From Bacteroidetes bacterium CG12_big_fil_rev_8_21_14_0_65_60_17 (GTDB taxonomy: Bacteria; Bacteroidota; Rhodothermia; Rhodothermales; UBA10348), in NCBI GenBank assembly GCA_002787815.1, contig PCUY01000068.1:1-34329 (forward strand): a DNA stretch of 34,329 nt. The letters are read 5' to 3'. Shown piece after piece: positions 17,123-29,597 of this stretch. Position numbers and translations under genes: made by a program. The notes beneath the pieces were generated by a model, which did no database searches, was not told where the DNA came from, and was given only the letters and a program-made list of their open reading frames with translations. Position 1 is the stretch's first letter, and each line of letters begins with the position of its first letter.

Positions 17123-18979
17123 TCAATGTTCGGTATCCAGTTGCCACAGCCATGCCTCACGCAGGGACATCATGTCCGGCGTAACCTCCAGCCCTGCATC
17201 TTCAAAGAGCACCACCTCCCGGTCCGTACGTTCGACCGGGGTCAGCATTGTGTCGAATGTCACACCGCGGGAGACTACCCGTATGTGGAGCGTACGTCCG
17301 GGCTCGAAAGTGTCAAGCAGTGCGTCCAGGTATGCCGGATGACTGATTTCGCGTCCGTCCACCCGTGTAATCAGGTCGCCCGTGGCAATCCCTGCAGCGT
17401 GAAGCGGTGTTCCCTCCAGGACAGGCCCCTGGACCCGGAGACCCTCACCGTCTGCGGCCAAACGTCCACCGACGGTAAAGGCACCGGGCTCCGCCGGCCT
17501 GATCAACATGCCGGCATGGGCCAGAAGCGCGTCATAGTCCATGGCATCGTTTCCGAATACATATCGCTCGAAAAACTTCCGGGCGAATGCCGTGCTACCG
17601 GACACATGCGCCAACGCCTGCTCCAGGTCTGACGATGTGATCGGTCTCTCGTTGCGTCCGTATGTCTGCCAGAGGTAACGCATGAGTGCATCGACAGACG
17701 TGTCATATTCACTGCGGAGGGCGAGATCCAACCCAAGTCCCAGGGCACTCCCCCACGTGTAGTAGGAAATGAATGTGTTCGCCGTGTTCATCGGATCGCG
17801 GAAACTTCCCTGATCAGAGAAGGCGGCCCAGCGGCTCATATCGGCAACCGAGCGGTGCATACGCCCCGGACTGTCCAACACTGTATTGATCCGCGCGGCA
17901 AGTCCCACCGCGTAATCGGCCGCGCTGGAAAGCCCTGCCCGGTGGATGGACAGGTCGGTGTAATAGCTGGTGAACCCTTCGGCGAACCAGAGCAGATCGG
18001 TCTGATTGGTCGACGTGAACACAAACGGCTCCAAATCGCGAGGGCGTATGCGCTCCACGTTCCACTGGTGAAAAAACTCGTGCGACATGGTGCCCAGATT
18101 GGCCAGGCCGTCTGGTGCGAGCGGGTTAGTGCTGGTTACCATCGTGGAGTTCCTGTGCTCCATTCCGTCACCATGTACCCAGGGAGTGTAACCGACAATG
18201 AACGTATAACTCCCGTTGTCGTAGTGCGGCATCTCACCAAAGACGCGGTGCTGGGCACGCACAATACGTTCCACGTTGCGTGCAAAAGCGGCACCCTCCT
18301 CGTCCGTACCCTGGTGCCGGAGCGCAATACGGTATGGAATGACGCGGTCTCCATCGGAGATATCCCATGCGTACCAGGTCATCGGCGCAATCACCGTCGG
18401 CGAATCCATGAAATAGGCCATGTCGGGTGCCGTGAATACGTCCGGATGATCCGTTTCAAAGAGTTGTGTCGCTATGTCCCATGAAGGGCCGGGACGGTGG
18501 AACCGGACGCTCACGGGTGCATCCCACAGATCAGGCGCCCACATGAACGTCGCCGGCATGTTCATGTGCGCCTGTGTGCGGTCGAATCCGGAATACGTCC
18601 CGTCGGCACGGTCCGCGAAGAGGGTATAGGCCAGCGTCACGTCACCGCCGCTCGTTGTGATTTCCCAGTTGAACGGATCGGTCCGTTCAACAGCCAGGGG
18701 GCGCCCATCGCGTCCCGTGGCACGGACATCATACACGTTCTTCGCAAATTCGTGCAGTGCATAGCGCCCCGGCGAACTCCTGCTCATGGTAACGCGAAGA
18801 CTCCCGTCGCCCGGTACATCCCGAAACGTGACCGTAATGTGCGCCTCGTGATGGGCAATGTCATCGAATGTGACTTCGTACAGCGTACCGGGCGACGTGT
18901 CCGTGTCGGCCGCGCGCAACCCACCGTTCGCCGGTTGGGCCGCGATCAGCGCGGCCAGCAGTAAAGAATGCAGTCTCAT
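17123..18979 (-). CDS. secreted M61-family metalloprotease with PDZ domain
   Basis: The 618-residue protein has a signal peptide (SLLLAALIAAQPANG), an N-terminal beta domain, a gluzincin catalytic domain with HEFFHQWN (zinc His 300 and 304) and the third ligand Glu334 in FAEGFTSYY. A C-terminal PDZ domain (~530-600) carries AAGIATGDLITRVDG. The family is glycyl aminopeptidase-like and acts outside the cytoplasm. ATG 18979 is chosen because the signal peptide starts there; an earlier in-frame GTG at 19045 would overlap pdxH. A TATAT box lies about 10 bp upstream, but no good -35 is seen. Confidence 0.9.
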   Translation of the reverse strand: MRLHSLLLAALIAAQPANGGLRAADTDTSPGTLYEVTFDDIAHHEAHITVTFRDVPGDGSLRVTMSRSSPGRYALHEFAKNVYDVRATGRDGRPLAVERTDPFNWEITTSGGDVTLAYTLFADRADGTYSGFDRTQAHMNMPATFMWAPDLWDAPVSVRFHRPGPSWDIATQLFETDHPDVFTAPDMAYFMDSPTVIAPMTWYAWDISDGDRVIPYRIALRHQGTDEEGAAFARNVERIVRAQHRVFGEMPHYDNGSYTFIVGYTPWVHGDGMEHRNSTMVTSTNPLAPDGLANLGTMSHEFFHQWNVERIRPRDLEPFVFTSTNQTDLLWFAEGFTSYYTDLSIHRAGLSSAADYAVGLAARINTVLDSPGRMHRSVADMSRWAAFSDQGSFRDPMNTANTFISYYTWGSALGLGLDLALRSEYDTSVDALMRYLWQTYGRNERPITSSDLEQALAHVSGSTAFARKFFERYVFGNDAMDYDALLAHAGMLIRPAEPGAFTVGGRLAADGEGLRVQGPVLEGTPLHAAGIATGDLITRVDGREISHPAYLDALLDTFEPGRTLHIRVVSRGVTFDTMLTPVERTDREVVLFEDAGLEVTPDMMSLREAWLWQLDTEH

Positions 18980-19017
18980 GAGCAAGATATAACGTTTACG
19001 TATCAGACACGGGAAAC

Positions 19018-19686
19018 CTACGGGTATAACCTCTCGACTTCCCATTTCATCTGTTTTTTTTCATCTTCGTCGCGCAGGAACACCAGTCGGTCGTGCAGCC
19101 GGAAGGGCCGTCCCTGCCAGAACTCCATGCGCTCCGGACGTACCAGCCACCCTCCCCAGTACGGCGGAAGGGGCACGTCCTTCCCTTTGAACGCCTCTTC
19201 CTGCTCCCGGACCGCCCGCTCCAGGTCTTTTCTCGACGCAAGCCGGCGGCTCTGCCTCGACGCCCATGCACCAATGCGGCTGCCCCGGGACCGGGACTGG
19301 AAATAGGCATCGGACTCCTCGCGCGAAACCCGTTCCACCCGTCCTTCAATCCGTATTTGCCGCTCCAGGATGGGCCAATGGAAAAGAAGCGCGGCGTGCG
19401 GATTCCCGTCCAGTTCGCGCGACTTGCGCGATTCGTAATTGGTATAGAACACAAATCCACGCTCATCGGCGGTCTTGAGAAGCACCATGCGGGAGGATGG
19501 ACGCCCGTTGGGTGTGGCCGTGGAAAGCGCCATGGCCTCGGGCATGAACAGCCCTGATTTTTCGGCAGCGCGGTACCAGGCATGAAAGAGCTCCATGGGA
19601 TCGCCAGCAGTAGAGACGTCGGGCATGCCGACAACGATGCCCCGTCCGGCCGTCCACAGCGCCCGTAGTGTAGTCAGAATGCTCAT
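19018..19686 (-). CDS. pdxH: pyridoxamine 5'-phosphate oxidase
   Basis: The 222-residue protein contains the FMN-binding segments [18 protein letters not shown] and [20 protein letters not shown], and the C-terminal PdxH signature [17 protein letters not shown] ending in ERLYP. It oxidises pyridoxine or pyridoxamine phosphate to PLP. The N-terminal 20 residues are not conserved, and an in-frame ATG at 19626 is an alternative start. ATG 19686 is preferred because it forms an ATGA overlap with the LolD-like stop. With pdxA it gives two PLP-pathway genes in one array. Confidence 0.94.
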
Positions 19687-26761: not shown

Positions 26762-26781
26762 GGTTGTTCAACAGCCTTTTT
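26762..26781 (+). terminator. intrinsic terminator of the gap operon
   Basis: GGTTGT-TCA-ACAGCC forms a 6-bp stem (one G-U pair) with a 3-base loop at 26762-26776, followed directly by five Ts and ATT. It lies 19 bp after the amidinotransferase stop and overlaps the last codon of the convergent receptor gene. Confidence 0.5.
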
Positions 26782-29359
26782 ATTGCCAGCGGATGCTGAA
26801 GAACGCGTGACGCGTGGCCAGGGGAAAGTACTGCGGTCCGACGGCGCCCACGTTACCGAACGCAAGTACGCTCCGGTTCAGTACGTTGTTGACGTCGGCT
26901 GCCAGTTGAATGCCGGGCACGGCGCGCGGTGACCAGGCCAGCGTCATGTTGACCATCGTATAGGCATCGAGCGCGGCGACGCGCGGGTCAATTTCCTGCT
27001 CGCCCACGTAGCTGAACTGTGTGGTCAACCTCACGCCGCGCCACTCTGACGTCTGGTGTACATTCGCAGTCGTATTCGGAAAACCGGCAATCGGCGTGCC
27101 GTCTTCAAACTCGTGTCGGGCCCAGGTCAGATTCCCGCCGAGTTCCGTGTGCACCCCGGAAGCTCCCGCAGCGCGTAGCCACGTACCGAGAAGGGCTTCG
27201 CCTTCCAGTTCCACGCCCGTGTGGCGGGAGCGGTCGGCATTCGTCGTGCGGGCCACTCCGAACTGGTCAAGCTCGCCGGTGGGTACTATTTCATCGTGGA
27301 AGTCCATCAGGAAAAGCGTTGTTGTAATTCGGTGACGAAGGCTCTTCCACGCGCCGCCCAGTTCCACATCAAAAACCGTCTCCGGCGTTACGCGGCCAAG
27401 CTGCGGCACGAATCCGGCGCCTGCCTCCTCGCCGTCGTAGAGCGATTTGAGGCGCGGCTCGCGCTGCGTGAGTGCCAGACTCAGGAAGCCGCGCAGTGGT
27501 TTTTCCGGCCGGTAGGTAATGCCCACGGCCGGGTTCAGGAACAGATAGCTCTTTGTGAACTGCGTCCCGAAAAAGTCTTCTTCGTATACACGGTACTGCC
27601 TCCAGGTGGCCTGGGCATCGGCCTGCAGCACCCAGTCGCTCGAGAGCCGCTCCTGGTGACGCACGCCGCCCGATACAATGGCTTTTTCGCCACGAAAGGA
27701 GTAGACCCGCCGGTCGGCGCGGCTGCCCACGACGAGGGAGGTCACGTCATTGGGCAGCCCTTCCGCCTCCTGTATGCGCCCCCAGCGTAGACTGCGGTGC
27801 AGCCGCGCCTCACCATTTATGGTTGTCACGCGGCCATCGCCCCGCCATATCGCCGAGGGAAGGTATCCGATCTGCCACTGGTCGAGCGCGGCCCGGAAGG
27901 TGAGCTGCAGGTCGGGGCGCGTAATGAAGAGCGGCAAATTGCGGGGGTCGTCCGGATCACCGGCATTGCCACCGCTACCGCTGCCATCACCGTCGCCGCT
28001 GCCGCCACCGTCACCGTCACCGGGCACGACGCTCTCGGGTAGCCGCAGGTAGTTGGCGCTCCGGAACGTCCCGCCAAAGTCGAAGTGTCCTATCCCGAGC
28101 ACGCCGAAAATGCGCTGCGTGAACTCCCAGTCACCCCCCGGCGCCCAGGTATGGTGGAGTTCGATGTGCGGCTGGTGGAACCGCTCCGTGTCGCGCGTGT
28201 CGGCAGAAAAATTGTATTTACGGTCAATAGTGCCCCCGAAACCGTCCGGAATGGTCTCCTTGTTTGCCTCGAGCGGAATACCGCTGAAAGCAAGGCCGTC
28301 CTTCTGCGGACCTCCGTAGGCCTGCAGCGTTATGGTATGGTGCGCACCGTAACGCGTTACCCCCACGAACCAGCGCCAGAATTCGGTCCACGACCAGTCC
28401 CGGTAGCCGTCGGACGTGAGGCGGCTTGCGCGTCCATGGAAAACATACTTGTCAGCAAGCAAACCGCTGTTCACGCTTGCCGAGTAGCGCTGCGTCCCGA
28501 AACTGCCCGCACCCACCTCGGCGCTGACCTGGAAATCGGGCCGGTAAGGCATGGCACGGATGCTCACCGCCCCCCCGATACCCTCCGAACCGAAGCGTGC
28601 TCCGGTCGTGCCACGCTGTATCTGGATGTCCTGCGTCGCACCCTGGATGTCAAAAAAATTGATCCAGAACACGTTGAAGTCCTCGGGGTCGTTCTGCGGA
28701 ATGCCGTTGATGGTGACGGCAACCCGGCGCTGGTCGAAGCCCCGCATGCGAAGTGTCGAGTACCCGATGGCATTGCCATTCTCGGACCAGTAGGTAATAC
28801 TGGGCTGGCGCGCCAGATGCACGGGCAGATCTTTCATGTCGGGCTGCCGCGCCAGATCGGTGGCCGAGATGTTCGTGACCGTGACGGGGGCGAGGGCGTC
28901 GTCCGCCCGCTCACCGGTGACGACGACGTCGTCACCGGTGAGGGCCCGCTGGCCGAGGGCCAGCGGGCCCATCTGGACGACGCCCTCGCCCCCGTCGACC
29001 TCAAGACGCGTGCGCAGCGTTCCGAATCCTACGAACCGGATCTCCACCTCATACACCCCGGGATCCACCACAACATGAAAGCTCCCGTCCGGTTGGGATA
29101 CCACGCCGTAGCGGATGAGTCCCGTCGCCGGGCTCCGCAGCGCAATCGTGGCGCCCGACAGCGGCTCTCCGTCCGCATCTGTGATGGCGCCCTCTACGCG
29201 AACCTGCTCCCCGGTGGCCATCTGGTGCGCGTGGGCCGCATCTACCGGCATCATGAAGAGGGCGGACAGGAGCATCGCGAAAAACAACAATGCCGAACGT
29301 TGTGCGGAATAACGATTATCTGGCCGAATATTATTCGACGAAAGGAGAAATAAATGCAT
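26780..29359 (-). CDS. TonB-dependent outer-membrane receptor, TPP-riboswitch controlled (thiamine uptake candidate)
   Basis: The 859-residue receptor has an N-terminal signal (to ~44), a carboxypeptidase-regulatory-like domain (~50-125, VEGAITDADGEPLSGATIAL), a TonB-box-like DDVVVTGER (~143-151), a plug with STLRMRGFDQRRVAVTINGIP and GTTGARFGSEGIGGAVSIR, and a beta-barrel ending in FFSIRWQ. It should import a large or scarce ligand through the outer membrane. The upstream TPP riboswitch suggests thiamine or a precursor; riboswitch-controlled receptors of this kind are known in Bacteroidetes. The barrel has a Gly/Asp/Ser-rich loop at about 445-475. DNA coding residues 122-159 forms a nested perfect palindrome. 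Confidence 0.9.
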   Translation of the reverse strand: MHLFLLSSNNIRPDNRYSAQRSALLFFAMLLSALFMMPVDAAHAHQMATGEQVRVEGAITDADGEPLSGATIALRSPATGLIRYGVVSQPDGSFHVVVDPGVYEVEIRFVGFGTLRTRLEVDGGEGVVQMGPLALGQRALTGDDVVVTGERADDALAPVTVTNISATDLARQPDMKDLPVHLARQPSITYWSENGNAIGYSTLRMRGFDQRRVAVTINGIPQNDPEDFNVFWINFFDIQGATQDIQIQRGTTGARFGSEGIGGAVSIRAMPYRPDFQVSAEVGAGSFGTQRYSASVNSGLLADKYVFHGRASRLTSDGYRDWSWTEFWRWFVGVTRYGAHHTITLQAYGGPQKDGLAFSGIPLEANKETIPDGFGGTIDRKYNFSADTRDTERFHQPHIELHHTWAPGGDWEFTQRIFGVLGIGHFDFGGTFRSANYLRLPESVVPGDGDGGGSGDGDGSGSGGNAGDPDDPRNLPLFITRPDLQLTFRAALDQWQIGYLPSAIWRGDGRVTTINGEARLHRSLRWGRIQEAEGLPNDVTSLVVGSRADRRVYSFRGEKAIVSGGVRHQERLSSDWVLQADAQATWRQYRVYEEDFFGTQFTKSYLFLNPAVGITYRPEKPLRGFLSLALTQREPRLKSLYDGEEAGAGFVPQLGRVTPETVFDVELGGAWKSLRHRITTTLFLMDFHDEIVPTGELDQFGVARTTNADRSRHTGVELEGEALLGTWLRAAGASGVHTELGGNLTWARHEFEDGTPIAGFPNTTANVHQTSEWRGVRLTTQFSYVGEQEIDPRVAALDAYTMVNMTLAWSPRAVPGIQLAADVNNVLNRSVLAFGNVGAVGPQYFPLATRHAFFSIRWQ
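27951..28026 (-). repeat. Gly/Asp/Ser low-complexity insertion in the receptor
   Basis: The reading frame here encodes repeated GDGDGGGSGDGDGSGSGG-type residues, followed by DPDDP, between two barrel strands. The DNA consists of imperfect CACCGTCACCG-like repeats. It probably forms a flexible, perhaps calcium-binding, extracellular loop. Confidence 0.75.
28883..28996. repeat. 114-bp nested palindrome within the receptor coding sequence
   Basis: An outer perfect 22-bp inverted repeat (28883-28904 with 28975-28996) encloses two perfect hairpins. The first has 15-bp arms 28910-28924/28928-28942 with a 3-base loop. The second has 13-bp arms 28942-28954/28958-28970 with loop GAG. As DNA or RNA it would make a three-way junction. 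It spans exactly 38 codons (residues 122-159) and keeps the receptor frame open across the linker and TonB-box region. Confidence 0.92.
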
Positions 29360-29422
29360 TTTATGCGATGGGTTCAGGGTGTATGATTACATCCTGTCGG
29401 GGAGCACCACATCGGCCAGCAG

Positions 29423-29500
29423 TCCGTTTTCCTTCGCCGGAATGACCCGGATCAGGTTCAGAGGGTATGCTCTCAGCCCGCGTGGGGCACCCCTAACAGA
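29423..29500 (-). promoter_or_regulatory. TPP (THI-box) riboswitch
   Basis: The minus strand carries the conserved TPP aptamer blocks in order: GGGGTGCC, GGCTGAGA, ACCC, GAACCTGATC and GGCGAAGGA. The ends close as a P1 stem (29495-29500 TCTGTT with 29423-29428 AACGGA). It lies 63 bp before the receptor ATG. The usual effect is lowered expression when thiamine diphosphate is abundant. No clear terminator follows, so control may act on translation or through a less obvious switch. Confidence 0.93.
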
Positions 29501-29597
29501 AGATTTTCAAGGTAACGTAGAACCAACGATCATGCACACAGTTGTTCATCAAGAGTCCTTGAACCCGACGGCACCAACGACCCGCGACGGAGAAAAC

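Follow-up and report, generated by a model that had tools for sequence, protein, structure and literature searches.

An in-frame compound palindrome in a TonB-dependent receptor gene belongs to a lineage-wide set of in-gene inverted repeats, probably made by fold-back template switching

Three perfect inverted repeats lie within 114 bp of a TonB-dependent receptor gene in the window, that is, in the whole stretch of 34,329 nucleotides analysed here. This raises the question of how such a structure arose in a protein-coding sequence and what keeps its arms identical. The gene, its upstream element and the parts of the palindrome are as follows.

26780–29359, minus strand: TonB-dependent receptor ORF of 859 residues, with CarboxypepD_reg, Plug and beta-barrel
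29412–29504, minus strand: TPP riboswitch (RF00059, 68.4 bits), directly upstream of the receptor gene
28975–28996, minus strand: 5′ arm (in the mRNA) of the outer stem, coding for DGGEGVV(Q); the variable linker arm, probably the copied or derived one
28883–28904, minus strand: 3′ arm (in the mRNA) of the outer stem, coding for (A)DDALAPV; the protein-conserved arm, probably the source
28942–28970, minus strand: inner hairpin 1, with 13-bp arms and a 3-nt loop; its tip pair C-G is compensated to G-C in the congener G003
28910–28942, minus strand: inner hairpin 2, with 16-bp arms and a 1-nt loop; it codes for LTGDDVVVTGE, a TonB-box-like stretch

The two short repeats (perfect arms at 28910–28925/28927–28942 and at 28942–28954/28958–28970) are adjacent to each other within the 70-nt loop of the long repeat, whose 22-bp arms (28883–28904/28975–28996) are also perfect, so that a single strand would form a three-way junction rather than concentric stems. 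The initial annotation had described three perfect repeats with arms of 22, 15 and 13 bp nested in this segment. The three repeats, their perfection and the arms of 22 and 13 bp were confirmed, but the middle arm is 16 bp long, and the two short repeats sit side by side inside the long one. The 114 bp begin at codon offset 363, in phase, and span exactly 38 codons, as had been stated. This exact phasing is incidental, because the outer arms begin and end elsewhere in the congeners.

Our Pfam analysis placed the palindrome segment (about residues 122–159) from the end of CarboxypepD_reg (55–126) to the start of Plug (157–264), which is the linker/TonB-box stretch of the receptor to which it had been assigned earlier. 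The riboswitch, also noted earlier, suggests uptake of thiamine or a thiamine precursor; because it precedes the gene, the receptor is probably one for a thiamine compound. It was the only Rfam family found between 26000 and 30000 at gathering thresholds, and none was found at the palindrome.

The structure is far beyond chance, in agreement with the initial annotation. In protein-preserving codon shuffles of 350 kb of coding sequence, the mean number of perfect arms of at least 16 bp was 0. The comparison of folding energy with shuffled codons that had been proposed gave −111.8 kcal/mol for the RNA of this structure against −56.3 ± 7.0 (SD) for synonymous-codon shuffles of the gene (z = −7.9), and the observed value was below all 500 of them.

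The locus in the genome under study (G000) was compared with that in its nearest genomes, G002 and G003 of the same genus, and in a more distant congener, G001. G002 and G003 match the Bacteroidota MAGs OFTM240 and OFTM130, and further close relatives carry the labels Rhodothermales or Rhodothermia. The congener alignment showed that the palindrome segment has the same length in G000, G002 and G003, with zero insertions or indels. This indicates that the site was rewritten and not inserted into. The outer stem is 19 bp in G002 and 18 bp in G003, with a 66-nt loop, and in G001 the corresponding position has a 16-bp outer stem that carries three double changes (GGGGGCGAGCGCCTGG vs GGGGGCGAGGGCGTCG, each with its complement) and a different interior. 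An outer stem was thus found in all four genus members sampled, and no such structure was found in the orthologous gene of most other family members. In G021, which belongs to another genus, other long repeats occupy the same receptor position, and a separate palindrome arose there in that genus. Lineage specificity, for which a check on orthologues had been suggested, holds only in part: at this locus the palindrome is shared throughout the genus, G021 has its separate one, and similar repeats are spread over the genomes.

Although their bases differ, the inner stems stay perfect in G002 and G003: three pairs are compensated and none is broken. In inner hairpin 2, one pair reads A-T, C-G or T-A across the three species, and the tip pair reads C-G or T-A. 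Each compensated inner pair is synonymous on one side and changes the amino acid on the other: GGT/GGA/GGG vs ACC/TCC/CCC (T/P/S), GAC/GAT vs GTC/ATC (V/I), and GCC/GCG vs GGC/CGC (G/R). This split is as expected if a silent change was copied into the partner arm. The protein encoded by the ADDALAP arm is conserved across the congeners, whereas the linker-side arm is variable and differs in length between species; in G000 it matches the conserved arm at its outer end over 4–6 more bases than in G002 or G003. Structures slid along the three-species alignment fared far worse than the real one. In a shuffle control on this alignment, 4–34 of 500 shuffles reached the observed values, which is a modest result from three sequences only. 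A further repeat of 14 bp with a 75-nt loop is private to G003; it lies at offset 281–383 of the receptor ORF, upstream of the main palindrome, and is absent in G000 and G002.

The receptor palindrome is one visible member of a lineage-wide set of in-gene inverted repeats. When about 370 kb elsewhere in G000 were scanned, many long inverted repeats were found, mostly within ORFs. In-CDS repeats with a near-perfect score of at least 16 occur at 3.4–4.0 per 100 kb in G000, G002 and G003 vs about zero in codon shuffles, densities that refer to about 382, 330 and 438 kb of coding sequence, respectively, and not to whole genomes. Their arms are 14–25 bp long and have few internal mismatches. The genome search for similar arms that had been proposed thus returned many in-gene inverted repeats, a scale which the initial annotation had missed, but the arm sequences are unrelated: blastn among the repeats found only orthologues and chance 12–16-mers, with no arm sequence common to loci. 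Beyond GC-richness, no motif was shared at the arm edges or in or at the edges of the loops. One further member of the set lies in the window.

18805–18897, minus strand: second in-gene inverted repeat, with 13-bp arms and a 67-nt loop, in the ORF at 17123–19045

This repeat is degraded, not kept, in G003.

Among repeats with loops of at least 10 nt (arm score at least 13), the loops cluster at 31–38 nt and, above all, at 60–85 nt, with a mode of 70–71 and few at 41–59. Both clusters are near zero in codon shuffles. Repeats with loops of 0–9 nt are a separate group, which probably includes terminators inside spurious ORFs. Fewer long-loop repeats were found in G001 (65 and 73 nt), G011 (68 and 70 nt) and G021 (68, 83 and 83 nt). 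The idea that all in-gene repeats are three-way junctions was rejected, the mean loop z being −1.1; strong structure inside the loop was confined to a few loci, such as the receptor (z −4.7 to −6.9) and one other (−3.4 to −5.9).

How these repeats evolve was followed among the three congeners. In conserved repeats (27 pairwise comparisons, not independent of one another) the arms differ by 4.5%, the loops by 13.0% and the flanks by 19.1%. Degraded repeats were seen in 8 comparisons among the congeners, and several that are intact in one species have decayed in the next. The conserved set has 4 compensated vs 30 broken pairs, and the outer arms of long-loop repeats are mostly conserved unchanged, so that re-templating is clearest only for short-loop stems. 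Construction of the palindromes by synonymous tuning, which would pair third with third codon positions, is disfavoured by the register counts, this register being the rarest among loops of 10–160 nt (11/54).

Covariation in the three-species alignment, with compensated changes at the right pairs, is what a functional mRNA would leave. In that case the three-way junction would slow the ribosome, or would control mRNA decay or the attenuation of the receptor gene under its riboswitch, and selection on pairing would produce the compensated changes. The very stable fold, the poor performance of slid structures, the greater conservation of arms than of flanks and the genus-wide outer stem all agree with this. 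Under selection for pairing in the mRNA, however, G-U mismatches should be tolerated and A-C mismatches not; those in conserved repeats were 7 G-U, 6 A-C and 17 other, with no G-U preference across the in-gene repeats. This strand symmetry points to a DNA-level process and argues against selection on mRNA structure. At the receptor itself, the stems in the three-species alignment are Watson-Crick only, except in G002, where the outer end has one T-G. Since similar repeats also occur in many unrelated genes, no Rfam family covers the palindrome and the orthologues of most other family members are without it, we regard an mRNA function as unlikely. The earlier suggestion that the fold affects receptor expression downstream of the TPP riboswitch gained no positive evidence from these comparisons.

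We consider it probable that recurrent fold-back template switching during replication creates and re-perfects the in-gene repeats; that copying occurred, in which direction and with which enzymes, we infer from the sequences. A segment would loop out, and across it the growing strand or its template would pair with complementary sequence nearby. It would be extended on that sequence as template and would then return, so that one site would be replaced by the inverse copy of another with no net gain of sequence. In-frame events that spare the protein would survive. A later mutation in one arm would be re-templated from the other, giving a perfect stem with paired changes. In the receptor, the conserved arms coding for ADDALAPV and TGER would mainly be the source, and the free linker arms the recipient. 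We take the conserved arm (ADDALAPV, VVVTGER) as the source because relatives conserve the protein at this arm but not at the linker arm, so the direction of copying is read from protein conservation.

Inverted copying of the ADDALAPV segment into the linker, which the initial annotation had proposed, is likely on this comparison of sequences, and it fits the conserved source arm, the variable linker, the lack of indels and the differing arm length. Both the extension of 4–6 bp in G000 and the compensated pairs are clustered changes that equal the inverse complement of the partner arm. Fold-back switching explains the insertion-free rewriting, the arbitrary arms, the paired changes, the strand symmetry, and the gain and loss of repeats. 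Template switching has been reported to create and maintain perfect stems and hairpins (PMC8794818) and to homogenise inverted-repeat arms in yeast coding DNA (PMC8604942). The loop peak at 70 nt would need a further assumption, because known template switching favours short spacers (PMC8604942). E. coli SSB has site sizes of about 35 or 65 nt wrapped per tetramer (PMC4652220). Because the loop clusters at 31–38 and 60–85 nt are close to these sizes, we propose that the looped segment may be bound by a single SSB tetramer that wraps either ~35 or ~65 nt, which would give the preferred loops. Alternatively, the loop sizes may reflect survivorship, short-loop palindromes being cut or deleted and long-loop ones rarely forming.

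In E. coli, mutation by template switching is limited by ExoVII and ExoI; ExoVII removes displaced 3′ ends, and SbcCD cleaves hairpins. Our search for xseA (ExoVII large subunit) detected it in none of the four genus members and in none of the genera g2, g4, g5, g6, g7 and g9, but found it in g3, g8, g10 and four order outgroups. Canonical SbcD passed the cut-off in all four outgroups and, within the family, in G012 alone. Every sampled genome carrying long-loop in-CDS repeats lacks xseA, and the genomes carrying them also lack canonical SbcD; long-loop repeats were not seen in G012, G010 and the four order outgroups, where xseA is present. With loops of 25–140 nt and a score of at least 14, 53 in-CDS repeats were counted in 1,542 kb from eight xseA-lacking genomes vs 0 in 504 kb from xseA-bearing ones (six genomes and E. 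coli K-12). Without G000, G002 and G003, the counts are 6 in 392 kb vs 0 (p = 0.007, uncorrected for shared ancestry). No long-loop case was seen in the 68 and 93 kb sampled from G007 and G015, which are without xseA. More widely, most genera of this Rhodothermales family lack both xseA and canonical SbcCD, with RecJ and MutS present. Loss of RecJ or MutS was rejected as a cause, as both occur throughout except in a few incomplete assemblies.

Loss of ExoVII together with loss of canonical SbcCD may therefore be what permits fold-back copying. The weak points here are the limited genome sampling, the non-independent species comparisons, the indirect basis of the SSB idea, and an enzyme link that is correlational. 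The absences follow the phylogeny, with few independent losses. We suggest only tentatively, as a possibility short of even chances, that a lineage without ExoVII and SbcCD rewrites its protein genes at a high rate via SSB-held fold-back, leaving self-correcting in-frame palindromes with a preferred loop.

Defined loop sizes, strand-symmetric mismatches and conserved arms could also mark sites that fold as ssDNA or cruciforms for a putative protein of recombination, uptake or the nucleoid, the protein setting the loop size. We find this improbable, as the arms are unrelated in sequence and share no motif at their edges or in the loops, and several repeats are intact in one species and degraded in the next. 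Intragenic invertons, in which the repeats would be recombination sites flipping the loop of ~70 bp, resemble this set in arm length and in-gene position, but they are a highly improbable explanation: the receptor loop is oriented alike in three species, arms that differ at each locus would not all be served by a single site-specific recombinase, and the loop is shorter than expected for recombinase-driven inversion. An assembly or amplification artefact, in the form of inverted chimeras in metagenome data, is very unlikely, to the point of being negligible; the relatives with record titles are all metagenome assemblies, but the repeats are seen in several assemblies, in frame, at conserved positions and with species-specific compensated changes.

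Palindromic elements of Rickettsia (RPE) belong to a sequence family whose copies have been inserted and bring in additional residues. They are likewise kept in frame inside genes, but the repeats studied here involve no insertion and no shared sequence. A mobile or Rickettsia-type element, with which the initial annotation had compared the palindrome, was rejected because the segment is of equal length in G002 and G003, without added codons, and blastn found no shared arm sequence.

The closest parallel described is found in Nematomorpha, whose mitochondrial genes contain coding palindromes (Mikhailov et al. 2019, PMC6649704). Common to both are many perfect in-gene inverted repeats with few imperfect ones, gain and loss between species, depletion of the third-with-third register among long repeats, and arms apparently kept identical; those authors also suggest template switching or conversion. 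Here, too, perfect in-CDS repeats were far above chance and imperfect ones few, and arms diverged much less than flanks (4.5% vs 19.1%). In contrast to the passages on those palindromes, in which arms reach 284 bp and the size of spacers is left aside, the present repeats lie in a bacterial chromosome, have arms of 14–25 bp and loops clustered at about 70 nt, number dozens of cases in about 1.5 Mb, show compensated changes between congeners, and have a candidate genetic cause. They are similar in kind to the Nematomorpha palindromes but are not members of that class, being bacterial and not mitochondrial.

Quasipalindrome correction in E. coli and yeast (PMC8794818, PMC8604942, PMC7202029) has in common with our repeats that imperfect repeats become perfect, that several bases change together, and that compensation comes about when one arm is copied into the other. 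Template-switch events, however, are enriched for four-nucleotide loops (PMC8794818) or have short spacers (PMC8604942), as against the 60–85 nt found here. Bacterial surveys have likewise counted inverted repeats genome-wide, but allowed spacers of at most 10 nt (PMC10434271) or 8 nt (PMC13155455), so that repeats with loops of 60–85 nt were outside their reach and in-gene cases of this kind would be missed. No report of a bacterial inverted-repeat class with such loops was found in the open-access literature, which is not proof of absence.

These results suggest that recurrent fold-back during DNA copying rewrites protein sequence in this lineage. If true, the coding palindromes of hairworms would have a natural counterpart in bacteria, and a new, identifiable mutational mode would connect the loss of repair genes with change in proteins. 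The preferred loop sizes would then point to a physical mechanism, and the missing ExoVII and SbcCD would be the candidate cause. It would also mean that compensatory changes, the usual proof of functional RNA, can arise in coding DNA without RNA selection.

In G003, three repeats (L122 9219–9765; arms of 17–18 bp, loops of 37, 60 and 71 nt) lie in one ORF of 411 aa, which we take, from identification by eye, to be Fe-type alcohol dehydrogenase-like; its loop-71 repeat is fully kept in G002. In G000, nested perfect repeats of 19 and 18 bp lie within 130 bp (L113, C10, 17446–17575) and are comparable to the receptor palindrome; the ORF there is short and may not be a gene. Another G000 locus (L108, ORF 15842, offset 591–717) and its G002 orthologue (L214) have loop z values of −5.9 and −3.4 and a compensated outer pair, and this locus is the second-best candidate for a conserved complex palindrome.
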